Source of the DNA: Meiothermus ruber DSM 1279 | GTDB taxonomy: Bacteria > Deinococcota > Deinococci > Deinococcales > Thermaceae | Reading direction: 5' to 3' | Length of the DNA stretch: 64,000 bases | Assembly: GCF_000024425.1 (NCBI RefSeq) | Contig: NC_013946.1 | Location: 2,914,001 to 2,978,000 of the forward strand | Shown: piece by piece, positions 36,306-44,937 of the stretch | Position numbering within the stretch: position 1 is the stretch's first letter | Layout of the letters: each line of letters begins with the position of its first letter | The notes under the pieces: model-generated | What the model saw: only the letters and a program-made list of their open reading frames with translations | What the model was told of the DNA's origin: nothing | The model's database searches: none | Translations under genes and position numbers: made by a program

Positions 36306-36869
36306 TCAAGGCCCGAGATCGGGGAAGCCATACTGCAAAACCCGCAGTTTGCTGGGAGCATCGGAGTCTTCCAGAATTACAAACACCCAATCGAAAGAGT
36401 TGCTAGCATACTCCAAAAGGGGAGCATTGCCGCACTGCAACTTGAGGAAAGGAAGCCTATTACTGTTATAACGGGGCATATACGTAAATCGGTAGAAACC
36501 CCTCCACTCTTCTTGCGGCGGCAGCGGGAGGTCGAGAACTTCCTCCCGCAAGGGGCTGGTGGCAGGCCGGTTCATCTGGAACCGAACCGCCGAATAGCCT
36601 CCCTCAACTCTTGGGTCAGGCTCCCATTCAGCAGGAACCTCCTCTTCGTTGTGCTCCCGGTAGTTTCCCGGATTGAACAAAAGGATGCGAGAAAAAAGGT
36701 AACCATTATCCCCCGGCGCCACACGCACCTCGATCTGGATGCCCTCCGGGCACAGGGTCGGGTTTTCCGGAAAGTAGAACAGAACTGGTGCAATTGGTGC
36801 GGGAGCAGGGAATGGACAGCCGGAGAGCAGCGGCAGGAGTACCAGTAGGGCTAATTTGAGCAATCTCAT
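36306..36869 (-). CDS. Hypothetical lipoprotein
   Basis: A 187-residue protein with a basic start (MRLLKLALLVLLPLLSGC) and a lipobox LLSGC, so Cys18 is the likely lipidated residue. A Pro/Ala linker follows (PFPAPAPIAPV), then a globular domain with FYRFTYMPRYNSNRLPFLKL. I recognise no family. It is the last gene in a minus-strand set after the papain-like ORF (9-bp gap), so the three genes 38691 to 36306 look cotranscribed. The G+C is lower than in neighbouring housekeeping genes. Confidence 0.65.
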   Translation of the reverse strand: MRLLKLALLVLLPLLSGCPFPAPAPIAPVLFYFPENPTLCPEGIQIEVRVAPGDNGYLFSRILLFNPGNYREHNEEEVPAEWEPDPRVEGGYSAVRFQMNRPATSPLREEVLDLPLPPQEEWRGFYRFTYMPRYNSNRLPFLKLQCGNAPLLEYASNSFDWVFVILEDSDAPSKLRVLQYGFPDLGP

Positions 36870-36878
36870 ATACTCACC

Positions 36879-38036
36879 TCAGTCACGCGGCCCGTCCCCA
36901 GGAGGTGGGGTTGGGTTATCGCCAGGGTTAGAAGCTGTTGGGTTGTAAAGCCGATAGGCCGCAAAGGACATATCGTAGTAGTCGCTCAGAAAAACAACGT
37001 TGCTGTTATTCCAGTAATCCACATCACCGGTGCGGGCGTGGTATGGGAGGTCGGTTCTATTACTGATATTGACAACGGCATAGTTCGCCGACCAGTCCCA
37101 GTACTCCAGAATTTTGAACTTTTTGGCCAGCGCAAAGTGGCCGTTTCCGAAGCGAACGCCGTTCACAATAAGCGGAATTGAGTTATCGGTCTGATAGCCC
37201 ACAATGGCCGGCATCTCACTGCCCTGAGGTGCGCCAATAGAGGCCTTGAGGATACCATTCACCCCCCAGGTAGCCTGTGACCAGGACACAAAATTCAGAA
37301 TTGGCGGCAGGATTATAGAAAGGCTGAGAAAGTCAATGTCCCGCGACCACACCCCGGTCAGTCGCTCGGGCCAGTTGTTGTCGGCCAGCCAAGCATTTCC
37401 TCCGTTAAGTAGTCCTGAAAAGCTGGTGCTGGTCTGACCTGCAAAGTGCGAGGAGCCCATTTTCTCCGGCAGCCAGGCCGCATATACATCCCGTGTAACT
37501 CCATTGATGTATTTTTCACCCACTCGAATCGGCCAAAAGACCATCTGCATGAATTTTTCTTGCTCGGATTTGGTTGCGGCACTACTTACCGTTACTGTAG
37601 CCCCGTGTGGGGTTAGGTTGTTGTTTGGAAGGCGAATCTCACGGCTGTTCCCAAGTTTGCCCGCGGCCCTGCTCCAGTCCAACAAGCGGGCCACCGACAT
37701 GGCCCCACAGCCCACAAGGTATTGTCCACCCGCATACTGGTCACCCGTGATCAGGCCCCGGGAAACTGGGCTGGGGTAGTCGTAGTCACCCCACACGCCC
37801 GTCCCTTGCTGGCTGGGCGCGGCCAGCGGGTTGCTGTAGTTCTGGTTTGGATTTTCCCGCCAACCAATATACGAACTTATCCACTGGTAGTTTCCGAAGT
37901 CGAGATCCCTAAGTAAATTCAGCTCACCTTCTACGACCCTAACAGTACATGACCATAAAAACCAGCTCACGCATTCGTTTCTGGTTGTGACCTGGCTACT
38001 AACGCCGTCTTTGAAAAACTGGCTACCAATGTGCAT
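36879..38036 (-). CDS. Papain-like (C10/C39-like) cysteine peptidase domain, no signal peptide; possibly split gene
   Basis: A 385-residue ORF from ATG 38036, 7 bases after the stop of the lipoprotein ORF upstream. Two motifs suggest a papain-like fold: VGCGAMSVARLLDW with Cys110 at the head of a helix, and GNGHFALAKKF with His300, followed by YWDWSANYAVVNIS. The order Cys, long insert, His and the GCG-A-LL wording recall C39_2 or C10 (streptopain) peptidases. The C-terminus is Pro/Asp-rich. It has no signal peptide, while the preceding lipoprotein ORF has one and looks like a propeptide; the frame stays open back to 38291, so one gene split by a frameshift is a real possibility. Confidence 0.5.
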   Translation of the reverse strand: MHIGSQFFKDGVSSQVTTRNECVSWFLWSCTVRVVEGELNLLRDLDFGNYQWISSYIGWRENPNQNYSNPLAAPSQQGTGVWGDYDYPSPVSRGLITGDQYAGGQYLVGCGAMSVARLLDWSRAAGKLGNSREIRLPNNNLTPHGATVTVSSAATKSEQEKFMQMVFWPIRVGEKYINGVTRDVYAAWLPEKMGSSHFAGQTSTSFSGLLNGGNAWLADNNWPERLTGVWSRDIDFLSLSIILPPILNFVSWSQATWGVNGILKASIGAPQGSEMPAIVGYQTDNSIPLIVNGVRFGNGHFALAKKFKILEYWDWSANYAVVNISNRTDLPYHARTGDVDYWNNSNVVFLSDYYDMSFAAYRLYNPTASNPGDNPTPPPGDGPRD

Positions 38037-38043
38037 GGCAGGG

Positions 38044-38691
38044 TCATTGGTCGCACTCGAGGTCGTAGGCCAGGGCACGCCGTTGGGTGACTCGTCCAAT
38101 AGTCGCTTCCAGCGTTTCGCCATTTCTCTTTGGAATATCCCCTTGCTCAACGCTGCTGGCAATCGCCGCAAAATTCTTTTTAATTGCGTCGGTTTCACTC
38201 GCGGAGAGGCGGTTTCCTTTAGCGTCCAACCATTCCTGGCCCCTGACCGCATACAGGCCATTCCCGTACTTAACCAACCGGCACTCACCACAGGTTTGAT
38301 GAACAGATTTGAAGACCTCGACTGGAAAAAGGCTGCTATGGAAGGTTCGATTGGTTGCAGCGCCGGTCAAGTAAACCAAACTGTCATTTTTTGCGTTGCT
38401 TACAGATTGCCAAAAGCTGCTGGGGCGCTCACCGTCCACTATCAAATTGGCCCAGAAAGCCGGACGCATAAGCGGATCATGAATAAGGGTAGACACAATC
38501 CATTTGTTCTGAACAGTTTGGGGGGTCAAATTTAGATCGTCTTTCGAAGCATTTACAGCGAGTGCTTGCCCGATGTATGCCGGAACCGCTTCATAGGTCA
38601 AAGTATCCTGTACACAGCTTGCTTGTTGAGACCCACACGCCACCAGCAACAAAACTAGCCCAACGACCAACGACCAAAAGACGAAACACAC
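38044..38691 (-). CDS. Lipoprotein (possible propeptide part of the papain-like protein)
   Basis: A 215-residue ORF from GTG 38691 with the signal FWSLVVGLVLLLVACG, so it is a lipoprotein (Cys in LVAC). The body contains FWQSVSNAKNDSLVYL, CGECRLVKYGNGLY and an SASETDAIKKNFAAIASSVEQG helix; no family is recognised. Its first bases, ribosome site and signal sequence are in a 95-bp block repeated at 44590-44684 before another lipoprotein gene. The stop is 7 bases before the papain-like ORF, whose frame overlaps its end, so they are either coupled genes or one broken gene. Confidence 0.6.
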   Translation of the reverse strand: MCFVFWSLVVGLVLLLVACGSQQASCVQDTLTYEAVPAYIGQALAVNASKDDLNLTPQTVQNKWIVSTLIHDPLMRPAFWANLIVDGERPSSFWQSVSNAKNDSLVYLTGAATNRTFHSSLFPVEVFKSVHQTCGECRLVKYGNGLYAVRGQEWLDAKGNRLSASETDAIKKNFAAIASSVEQGDIPKRNGETLEATIGRVTQRRALAYDLECDQ

Positions 38692-38730
38692 ATGGCTGAA
38701 TGCACCTCCATAGTCCAGGCTACATTTTGG
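38636..38730 (-). repeat. Duplicated lipoprotein leader, copy 1
   Basis: A 95-bp block matching 44590-44684 with nine differences and no gaps. It covers the promoter-proximal leader, a GGAGG ribosome site (38709-38705) and the first codons of the lipoprotein signal. Both copies also encode, in another frame, a 12-codon mini-ORF ending FGRWSLG and a stop (here 38693-38655). Confidence 0.8.
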
Positions 38731-38745
38731 GGTAGCCAGAATCAT

Positions 38746-39012
38746 CGTAGGTTAGTGCTTTGAGTTGAGTCAATAGCAAATATTTTATTTACATTAAGTA
38801 CAAATTTATTGCTCCCTAGTCCAAGCCGTAATGCAGTACTACGGTCATTAGTGCCAGACGCTCTCTGACACTGCTACGACAGCATCCTTTACTCTTCCTG
38901 GGCTTTCCCCAAGGTTGGTGGCTTCTGCCCTCAGATGTCTGGCCTCGGCAACTGCACACATAACCCAAACGGTTCAAAAGCCCAGCCTCTTTTGGTACGC
39001 TATGCGCCAACC
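38746..39012. other. AT-rich divergent spacer before potA
   Basis: A 267-bp stretch between the divergent lipoprotein and potA genes. The left part (38765-38815) is strongly AT-rich. AGTGCCAG (about 38850) and CTGACACT form an 8-base inverted repeat with one mismatch around ACGCTCT. It probably holds both promoters. No ORF is convincing. Confidence 0.4.
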
Positions 39013-42927: not shown

Positions 42928-43956
42928 CTACCGGGTGGGTTGTCCTCCCCTGAAGACGGATTCATCCATCACTTCCGGGGGGTCGAAGACCAGCTCGAGC
43001 ATCTCCGACCGAACCATGGTTTTGCTTCCCACCACCCCACGGTAGTAGAGTAGCAACCCCGATTCCATATCTATCGCCAGCTCATAGTAATCGCACACCA
43101 GCCACCAGTCGTCCGGCGCACCCCACCAGTCCACCCAGAGCATCTCATCCTGTTCCTCAATGGTGCGGGGCACACCCCGAACCAGCACCGCAGGCCGACC
43201 CAGGTGGCTACACTCTCCAAGAACCTCGAGCTTCAAATCCAGGGCCAAGGGCCTCAGATAGTGGTGCTCGTTGACAATGGTCAGGTTAGGGTGTCGGGCC
43301 CGCACATTTACCGGGTCGCAGTAAAAGGCATCCACCCCGTCCTTGCTCTCACAGCGGCTAAGATTCTTGAGATTTACAGCACTCTGAGGCAACGTATATA
43401 CCACATCAAGAACAGGTTGGAGTATGCGATCCACTGCCTCTCGAGTACGCTCATCCCATGCGGCTGTTTCTTCTCCAGTGCCCGGTCGCGTTCCCCCTGA
43501 CCTAATCGCCGCCAGTAGCTTCTCTATTTCAGATAATTTTGCTTCTAGAATAAGCTCTTCCCTGCGTTTATGAACTTCCTTCTTCCTCGGATAGCCCTGC
43601 TCATCAAAATACCTTTGCAGATCTTTGTAGAATGCCTCGTCTATATCGCGTTGTAAACCTGGGTCATAGGTTGCATACGACCGGGATTTTGTCCGGTAGC
43701 CCACCTTTGGCTTCCACCAGAACTGGCTCTCTATCACAAGATTACCTTGTGGCTTAAGAAAAAACTCGAGCTTCCCAACCCCCTCTTCTGCCCGGTACGG
43801 CGTGATCTTGTCGTGATCCCTGGGCAGCCGGGCCTTGGTAACCGCCCACAGGCCCACGTCCTGCTCCCAGCGAATCTTGTAGTACACACCGCTGGCTCTG
43901 TTGAGCGGAGGGGTGATCATCCGGAGGAGCACGTCCTGAAGCGTGAACTTGGTCAT
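42928..43956 (-). CDS. Hypothetical protein, 342 aa
   Basis: A mostly soluble protein of unknown family with no signal peptide. Its centre is charged and helical (VHKRREELILEAKLSEIEKLLAAIRSG), and its C-terminal half is rich in Trp and acidic residues (DEMLWVDWWGAPDDWWLVCDYYELAIDMESG). Two Cys-containing stretches, NLSRCESKDGVDAFYCD and LGECSHLG, may be structural. The gene starts 5 bp after the lipoprotein gene at 43962 ends, so the two are cotranscribed. The last 12 codons and 3' flank recur as a fragment at 44938, so a second copy once existed. Confidence 0.6.
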   Translation of the reverse strand: MTKFTLQDVLLRMITPPLNRASGVYYKIRWEQDVGLWAVTKARLPRDHDKITPYRAEEGVGKLEFFLKPQGNLVIESQFWWKPKVGYRTKSRSYATYDPGLQRDIDEAFYKDLQRYFDEQGYPRKKEVHKRREELILEAKLSEIEKLLAAIRSGGTRPGTGEETAAWDERTREAVDRILQPVLDVVYTLPQSAVNLKNLSRCESKDGVDAFYCDPVNVRARHPNLTIVNEHHYLRPLALDLKLEVLGECSHLGRPAVLVRGVPRTIEEQDEMLWVDWWGAPDDWWLVCDYYELAIDMESGLLLYYRGVVGSKTMVRSEMLELVFDPPEVMDESVFRGGQPTR

Positions 43957-43961
43957 CGTAT

Positions 43962-44624
43962 TTATCTGGACTGATTGCCTAGCGTAGAAATCGAATCATC
44001 TGGTGGTGGATCTACAGGTGGGGGGCTTGGCGGTTCAGACACCTTCTCGCAGCTGTCAACTTTGAGTGTCGTAAAGTTTTCCGGATAAATAGGTATGGGC
44101 CAATTGAATATTTTTGGCGCCTTTCGGTATACATATCCGACAGCAAGGTATCTAGAGCGGGGTATGCAATTCGCAAAAACATAGGCCGTTGAGCGACTCC
44201 AAGTAGCAATCTGTTCTCCTCCTGAGATGTTACCCGGTCGTATATGTTCCGTCTCAGCAACCTTTACCCACTGGTTGAAGATTCTGGGCGGATTATCAAT
44301 CCTATACAGCTGCAAAACTAAACGATACTGCATCCCCGGCACTGGCGGTGTGGTTACACACGAACCCCCAGCCTTGGCTTTGATAACGGTATTCGAGTCA
44401 ATTGTTGTTATGTGAGGATGATCCAATTTCAACTCAGAACAATCCGTTCTAGCGCGAACAACTTGTTGGGTTTCCACCTGGTCTTCAACATTGAGCAGAA
44501 TCTCCTCTCCAATAAGAGAGCCGGCGCCTTCATCAACCACTATCCTGCTGTCTTCGTGATTGGAATCAGGTGCGGAATCATTTCTTCCGCACGCCGCCAG
44601 CAACAGAACTAGCCCAACGACCAA
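43962..44624 (-). CDS. Hypothetical lipoprotein with Pro-rich tail
   Basis: A 220-residue protein beginning, from TTG 44624, VVGLVLLLAACG; the lipobox LAAC marks Cys12 as the lipidation site. Stops in frame just upstream rule out a longer N-terminus, so the usual basic start is missing. The body has Cys-containing strands (TDCSELKLDHPHITTI, GSCVTTPPVPGMQYRLVLQLYRI) and ends in a Pro/Asp-rich tail. Only its leader and signal (95-bp block) match the lipoprotein at 38044; the mature parts look unrelated. Confidence 0.6.
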   Translation of the reverse strand: MVVGLVLLLAACGRNDSAPDSNHEDSRIVVDEGAGSLIGEEILLNVEDQVETQQVVRARTDCSELKLDHPHITTIDSNTVIKAKAGGSCVTTPPVPGMQYRLVLQLYRIDNPPRIFNQWVKVAETEHIRPGNISGGEQIATWSRSTAYVFANCIPRSRYLAVGYVYRKAPKIFNWPIPIYPENFTTLKVDSCEKVSEPPSPPPVDPPPDDSISTLGNQSR

Positions 44625-44684
44625 CGACCAAAAAATAAATCACGCATAGCTGAATACACCTCCATAGTCCAGGCTACATTTTGG
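44590..44684 (-). repeat. Duplicated lipoprotein leader, copy 2
   Basis: The counterpart of 38636-38730, with nine differences in 95 bp. It contains the same GGAGG (44663-44659), the same out-of-frame 12-codon mini-ORF ending FGRWSLG (44647-44609) and the same signal-peptide codons. A TGA at the start of the lipoprotein frame forces a TTG start in this copy. Confidence 0.8.
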
Positions 44685-44937
44685 CAGCCTGGTTTAGTTT
44701 AGGTCGGAGCGGTGTTTTTTGGCAATCTACTAAGCACTAAATATACTTGGTTTATTTTGTAATGAACCCCTTGACTTTTGTTTGAGACAGTGCAGTTTCA
44801 GAAAATGACCTGAGCCCTCCACGGTTGTTCAACGGGCAAGTCTGCCCTGACGGGGCTTGCAGGTTTGAGAGAGGGTGGTTTGTGGGCAGTTGGGTTCCCA
44901 ACACCCTCCCGAGCTTCGTCCCGAACCATCAGAGCCC
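44685..44937. other. Non-coding stretch between lipoprotein leader and gene remnants
   Basis: An AT-rich left part (to about 44800) that must hold the lipoprotein promoter on the minus strand, then G+C-richer sequence. I see no credible ORF in it. Confidence 0.35.

Follow-up and report, generated by a model that had tools for sequence, protein, structure and literature searches.

Two neighbouring ORFs on the reverse strand of Meiothermus ruber DSM 1279 DNA raise the question of whether they are two genes or a single interrupted one, and of how translation of their product starts. They lie in a stretch of 64,000 nucleotides (hereafter the window, meaning the stretch at its full length); positions are counted from its first letter and all window features given below are on the reverse strand. 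The upstream ORF (38044..38691) codes for a lipobox (LLLVAC) and an N-terminal domain of about 200 amino acids. The downstream ORF (36879..38036) codes for a domain with Cys110 (in GCG; 37709-37707) and His300 (in GHF; 37139-37137). A preliminary description of this DNA had proposed that a frameshift split the gene of a secreted cysteine peptidase or, alternatively, that two proteins are made separately from coupled starts. The geometry on which it relied is correct: the TGA of the lipoprotein frame ends at 38044, seven bases follow, and the ATG of the second ORF stands at 38036; the second frame is open upstream to a GTG at 38291 (36879-38291) and, from stop to stop, as far as 38366. The two residues are also where it had placed them, and both are invariant in the 15 rows of alignment A5, always Cys then His (these rows are chosen copies, not all copies found). 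The end of the lipoprotein frame stands as well, but not its start at 38691. That frame is open from an ATG at 38745 with an in-frame GTG at 38691, and the ribosome binding sequence best serves an ATG at 38693 that is out of frame (see below).

The genome of a sister organism (G001; copy L040, 87% identical; G, C and L codes are our working labels for genomes, contigs and loci of relatives) bears directly on the first question. A single open frame of 632 codons spans both parts there, and the two halves in the window match it at 85% over 176 amino acids and 82% over 439 amino acids. The overlap of the two frames in M. ruber is thus not a chance event, because the halves align with a single continuous protein. 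Within the segment 38120..38133 the window has one base more than the intact sister copy. The two ORFs are one lipoprotein gene, composed of an export signal, an N-terminal domain and a C-terminal domain with the invariant Cys and His, and its M. ruber copy is broken by a one-base frameshift. The split is in itself an ordinary broken gene, as the preliminary description had guessed, and the start region with its repeat tract is the more important feature of the locus.

Leader and repeat tract in the window

The gene is preceded by a compact leader. Its shared promoter, identified by regex match, has a −35 box TTGACT (38768..38773) and a −10 box TACGAT (38744..38749). A regex search for TTGNNN/TANNNT boxes succeeded in 16 of 19 leaders; in both G007 leaders the match is placed differently. 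Just 3′ of the −10 box, at the expected mRNA 5′ end, lies an inverted repeat GGCTAC...GTAGCC (38718..38737), read from the sequence without pairing data, which is aligned in 14 of the 19 leaders (alignment A7) with variants in other Meiothermus. A Shine-Dalgarno sequence GGAGGTG (38703..38709) follows; it is present, exactly or as a one-base variant, in all 17 resolved leaders that have the heptanucleotide repeat described below. The ATG that it serves best (38691..38693) is offset by +2 from the frame of the lipoprotein body. The GTG at 38691 begins two bases after the start of this ATG, is in frame with the body and has a 5-base match to the same Shine-Dalgarno sequence, so that a weaker start of the lipoprotein at this codon appears possible.

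Sixteen nucleotides after the first base of the ATG begins a heptanucleotide array, (TTGGTCG)2 followed by TTGG (38660..38677), located inside the codons of the signal peptide; with two units (n = 2) the ATG register is off. No chance match to this 18-mer is expected in shuffled window sequence (0.00), and it occurs at three places in the whole M. ruber genome, all of them lipoprotein leaders; two are in the window and the third is at genome position 133996-134013. L039 has a less exact 14-nt match on its other strand, which the 18-nt count excludes. The lipobox Cys, in the body frame, is invariant in the eight full-length rows of alignment A1, which were picked for being in one frame and are therefore biased as a count; a signal peptide and a lipobox Cys, by which bacterial lipoproteins are recognized, are thus both present. 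The lipobox Cys is lost in the deletion copy G011. A run of T close to the array, a conceivable site of ribosomal slippage, is not conserved and was discarded for that reason.

Six kilobases away, a second leader identical in spacing and register precedes an unrelated lipoprotein gene. It comprises promoter boxes TTGCCA/TAAACT found by regex match (44696..44725), an inverted repeat read from the sequence (44671..44690), a Shine-Dalgarno sequence with its ATG (44645..44663, the ATG at 44647-44645 and its register off) and the array (TTGGTCG)2 plus TTGG (44614..44631); there is no in-frame GTG beside this ATG. The inverted repeats of the two leaders (38718-38737 and 44671-44690) perhaps form a stem-loop at the mRNA 5′ end. 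Behind the second leader are encoded a 220 amino acid lipoprotein (type B; 43962..44624) and a 342 amino acid partner (42928..43956) in which no signal peptide was seen. Of 111 Deinococcota genomes, 6 contain the type B partner, and every one belongs to this genus; no family match to it rose above the cut-off. Two type B alleles with n = 2 and n = 7 are separated by a dS of only 0.053 (dN/dS 0.46), which indicates that the tract changes fast. In G013 (L046:1380-1560) the type B body is 95% identical to that of the window (44600-44730) and has a different upstream promoter region, resembling that of an M. ruber locus at 134 kb.

Register of the start codon across relatives

The same order of Shine-Dalgarno sequence, ATG, 16 nucleotides, (TTGGTCG)n and lipobox is found in 17 resolved Meiothermus leaders, with n ranging from 1 to 7. 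Promoter boxes, inverted repeat, Shine-Dalgarno sequence and ATG are common to most Meiothermus leaders, the two of G007 differing upstream; leaders and bodies seem, to judge by their combinations, to recombine at the shared leader. Other tracts occupy the equivalent site in other genomes: (GGAA)n in three lipoprotein genes of G070 and (TC)n in G059, G060 and G061. Three unrelated repeat units are therefore present at one position. Unit numbers are often low. Among the 17 heptamer leaders, n equals 2 in seven (the three M. ruber leaders included) and 1 in two more, and the (TC) tracts have four or five units, (TC)5 in G061 and (TC)4 in G060.

The tracts are nearly exclusive to these genes. Among 18 genomes of the genus, 10 have heptamer arrays of at least two units, at 19 places in total, of which 18 are at these lipoproteins; the lone exception is on contig C201 of G007 (L042) and has no lipoprotein leader. 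A reversed heptamer pattern is not a valid control for this search, as reversal gives the same repeat shifted. (GGAA)4 occurs in one of seven genomes searched (G070), at three places, each directly after a lipoprotein ATG. TTCTCTCTCTCT was found once in G059 and twice in G061, always at lipoprotein leaders (one of them bodiless at a contig end), and is absent from G060, whose tract is shorter.

The register of the ATG served by the Shine-Dalgarno sequence was determined for the 23 leaders with both tract and body resolved (17 heptamer, three (GGAA)n and three (TC)n). Left out were leaders whose contig ends in or just after the tract (G015 C100:3296, C101 and C188; G061 C102) and G017 (L084), whose leader is decayed; G091, a partial match without a visible lipobox, enters no count. 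Draft contigs stop in or just after tracts at L049:1-68, L050:1330-1399 and L048:3245-3298 (G015) and at L127:1-60 (G061), as would fit repeated leaders or long arrays breaking the assembly. The ATG is in frame with the body in one leader, at +1 in nine and at +2 in 13, that is, out of frame in 22 of 23. The single in-frame leader (G014c, n = 6, MRFSSFGCWLLVAGCWLLVAGLGLLITACG) is the only one that qualifies as an on-allele. Compared with an expectation of one third in frame, the shortfall has P = 0.0011 for the 23 leaders, P = 0.0096 for the 17 heptamer leaders alone and P = 0.027 when each of the 14 genomes contributes a single locus. These values are optimistic and only a guide because the leaders are related and not independent. 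In all five tract-free relatives (L113, L114, L123, L124, L125), first picked by reading, an in-frame ATG precedes the lipobox (5/5; Fisher p = 6e-5). Under a rule that demands a Shine-Dalgarno match of at least 4 bases four of the five stand, L123 lacking the match, and L113 has an additional, farther ATG out of frame with a 4-base match. G027 retains a leader remnant without ATG.

The bodies behind the out-of-frame leaders appear to be under purifying selection. Six body pairs from M. ruber, G008, G014 and G016 have dN/dS values of 0.06-0.15, which are only rough as dS exceeds 1 in all six; for the pair with G027 the ratio could not be estimated. A repeat lying between start codon and functional part, and differing in unit number between close alleles so that the register shifts, has two of the marks of a contingency locus, and these leaders conform to both. 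We consider it likely that the members of Thermales that carry a tract possess a repeat-switched two-gene surface system working by slipped-strand phase variation, whose gene happens to be broken in the window. DNA slippage, or recombination between leaders, would add or remove repeat units between start codon and lipobox, which would move the ATG served by the ribosome into register with the body or out of it, and one register in three would make the full signal peptide. A minority of cells would then display the protein. That slippage is the agent, that living cells switch expression on and off and that the protein is displayed at the surface is inferred, there being no read-level or within-strain data. 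With less assurance, only a little above an even chance, we favour the broader proposal of a phase-variable surface system that is off by default and distributed across Thermales, consisting of a new Cys/His lipoprotein family and a constant small lipoprotein partner, perhaps with an inhibitor or immunity role. Separate lineages would have recruited 7-mer, 4-mer and 2-mer repeats at the equivalent codons, and in Meiothermus and G070, where unrelated lipoproteins also stand behind the repeat leader, a small switchable regulon of free-living thermophiles would result.

Several observations count against switching. Among the heptamer leaders register +2 is commoner than +1 (11 versus 5 of 17), an excess that simple slippage does not predict, and the nine of 17 with one or two units should slip rarely. 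These points are the strength of the main alternative, in which no switching occurs, the repeat is merely a piece of the signal peptide, and translation of the body begins internally (at a TTG of the array, or at GTG 38691 in the window) or by stop-and-restart after the peptide begun at the ATG. An in-frame TTG is present inside the array of most heptamer leaders, and in the most frequent register, +2, the ATG peptide stops at the array end near such a codon; four leaders (that at 38.7 kb in the window, G016, G012a and G013) have an in-frame GTG 2-4 nt 3′ of the ATG; and the selection on the bodies would be accounted for. However, in G014b (564 amino acids, intact), G070 C108 and G061 the stretch of body frame from the last in-frame stop to the lipobox is free of ATG, GTG and TTG; internal starts can therefore not account for the leaders in general, and restart at TTG as the universal start is rejected since these three leaders lack it. 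Moreover, the array TTG has no ribosome-site match of at least 4 bases in the window leaders at 38.7 and 44.6 kb or in L039, registers +1 and 0 also occur, and different tracts stand at the equivalent place in other genera. We regard translation without switching as unlikely; a leaky alternative start still stands as the chief competitor of phase variation because of the +2 excess, the short tracts, the in-frame GTGs and the absence of reads.

Broken and intact copies of the large protein gene

Profile searches and reading of the loci gave 20 near-complete copies of the large protein gene, of which 13 are in one frame and seven are split. Full-length homologues in related genomes, which the preliminary description had proposed to look for, are thus available: eight one-frame copies belong to the genus (the sister G001 and seven further ones: G008, G016, G000 at 134 kb, G007 C212, G012a, G014b and G015 C100) and five lie outside it (G027, G059, G070 C225, G087 and G094). 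The split copies are those of the window, G007 C115, G045, G050, G060, G070 C108 and G108, so that within the genus eight copies are continuous and two split. A search with the second ORF alone found relatives in four of 18 genomes of the genus, M. ruber included. The splits fall at different profile positions (about 134-140, 181-187, 199-250, 357-412, about 402, and 435), and orthologues are accordingly not consistently encoded as two genes, the outcome that would have refuted the split-gene reading of the preliminary description. Breakage of this gene is, by the positions of these putative lesions, common and separate.

The count of 20 omits the deletions G011, G012b and G014d, the remnant G003, the partial match G091, pieces at contig ends (G015, G061) and a truncated copy on plasmid pTT8. 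At L044:3469-4103, L045:5321-5774 and L083:1822-2860 large deletions have joined the leader to the middle of a body directly or after a short N-terminal stretch; the leader or array is perhaps a deletion end point in some of them. A profile built from 11 members detects the large protein family in 21 of 111 Deinococcota genomes. A tblastn search with the M. ruber paralogue hit four plasmid records from Thermus, each 9.3 kb long, of which two are pTT8. In pTT8 of Thermus thermophilus HB8 (L133:2264-3954) the homologue is truncated and frame-broken while the partner gene is open; both are annotated as hypothetical. No family member was matched in phages and viral contigs. A scan of genome contigs seeded on the lipobox, which is the only coverage of other phyla, returned three loci, and absence from those phyla is not demonstrated by it.

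The break in M. ruber looks recent, since both halves keep a dN/dS of about 0.15 relative to L040 (0.149 and 0.161). The retained constraint would also be expected if the frame change were a sequencing error in the assembly, and the change sits in a short single-base run. That run is, however, only three bases long, and the genome was determined with Sanger and 454 reads and polished with Illumina data, with an error rate below 1 in 100,000 as stated in the genome report (PMC3035268). An error of this kind is improbable.

Of the two marks of a pseudogene, an intact orthologue together with a disabling change is present (L040 is intact, the window copy is not), and relaxed selection is not seen, although a break that was recent would not yet reveal it. 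Decay could also be invoked for the whole family, the out-of-frame starts and the internal breaks being no more than loss in Thermales. The seven of 20 near-complete copies that are split, the truncated pTT8 copy, the large deletions in G011, G012b and G014d, the remnant in G003 and the G027 leader without ATG are all in its favour. Against it, eight Meiothermus bodies of 551-612 amino acids have no stop, the six body pairs keep their low dN/dS even if dS is saturated, and decay would not place three kinds of repeat at one site and leave them nearly absent elsewhere in the genome. We give ordinary pseudogenization of the family little credence as a substitute for phase variation.

A programmed frameshift at 38133-38120, or the pair of coupled genes that the preliminary description offered as its alternative, is close to ruled out: the parts of G070 C108 do change frame near the profile position of the window (about 181-187, the only two split sites near each other), but the G070 DNA has no evident sequence in common with the window there, a conserved site of frame change is lacking given that the eight one-frame Meiothermus copies, that of the sister genome among them, read through it, and no Shine-Dalgarno sequence was seen before ATG 38036.

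Protein identity, known systems and significance

The unit is completed by a small lipoprotein of 187 amino acids (36306..36869), which starts at an in-frame ATG of its own and is free of repeat tracts over its initial 90 nt. A scripted search found a small lipoprotein gene downstream of the large one in 21 of 23 entries, which, after removal of three that duplicate other loci, amounts to 18 of 20 distinct loci; in L044 and L118 the partner overlaps or lies in the next stretch, and in G070 C108 the partner also changes frame. The partners belong to one family, which is divergent in sequence and has Cys positions in common. No repeat tract was present in the first 90 nt of 17 of the 18 partner genes tested, the exception being that of G059, with three GGT-type triplets. 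In G014b the large protein belongs with the M. ruber paralogue (71% identity), but its partner (L047:4770-5339) is closest to partners of the window type (58-59%; compare window:36306-36869); the large protein gene and the partner gene are therefore exchangeable.

Scans against Pfam, NCBIfam and PADLOC gave no usable match for the large protein or the partner, and PDB profile searches gave none for the Cys/His domain. AlphaFold models reached a pLDDT of 39 for the Cys/His ORF, with only three relatives in the alignment, and 61 for the partner; Foldseek at E ≤ 0.001 returned nothing for either, the former model being poor. The domain resembles clan CA peptidases (papain-like, C39- or C10-like) in its order of Cys then His and, as far as the poor model can be trusted, in a GCG before a predicted helix and a His at a predicted strand. 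No Pfam, NCBIfam or PDB profile match links it to them, and no fold match either, though the model is too poor to judge the fold by. The terms "papain-like peptidase" and "propeptide", given to the two parts by the preliminary description, thus remain unproven, and cysteine-peptidase chemistry, like an inhibitor or immunity role of the partner, is inferred without activity data.

The closest known arrangement is that of the Neisseria Opa proteins, whose signal-peptide codons contain a (CTCTT)n tract. Both systems have the repeat in the region coding for the signal peptide, several loci per genome and a register set by n modulo 3. Opa is, however, an outer-membrane barrel, whereas here an unrelated lipoprotein and its partner are found with other repeat units in a free-living thermophile of another phylum, and switching has not yet been observed. 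Haemophilus influenzae has tetranucleotide contingency loci, and the heptanucleotide tract of its hmw1A gene is located in the promoter. Those loci are alike in having multi-base repeats that slip and alter surface proteins; the hmw1A promoter tract contrasts with the position between ATG and lipobox found here. Heptanucleotide repeats of H. influenzae HMW1A have been described (PMC8262952). A literature search on phase variation in Meiothermus, Thermales and Oceanithermus found no description of such a system, most subscription papers being outside its scope. We probably deal with a known mechanism, a repeat-switched surface system, in a lineage and protein family for which no report was found.

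Repeat-based phase variation is known mostly from host-adapted bacteria, and immune evasion is its usual explanation. If our reading is true, a switched surface family in free-living hot-spring bacteria would point to another pressure, such as phages, competitors or predators. A caution also follows for these loci: what is predicted there as a TTG start or a "split gene" may be an off-allele and not a true start or an error.
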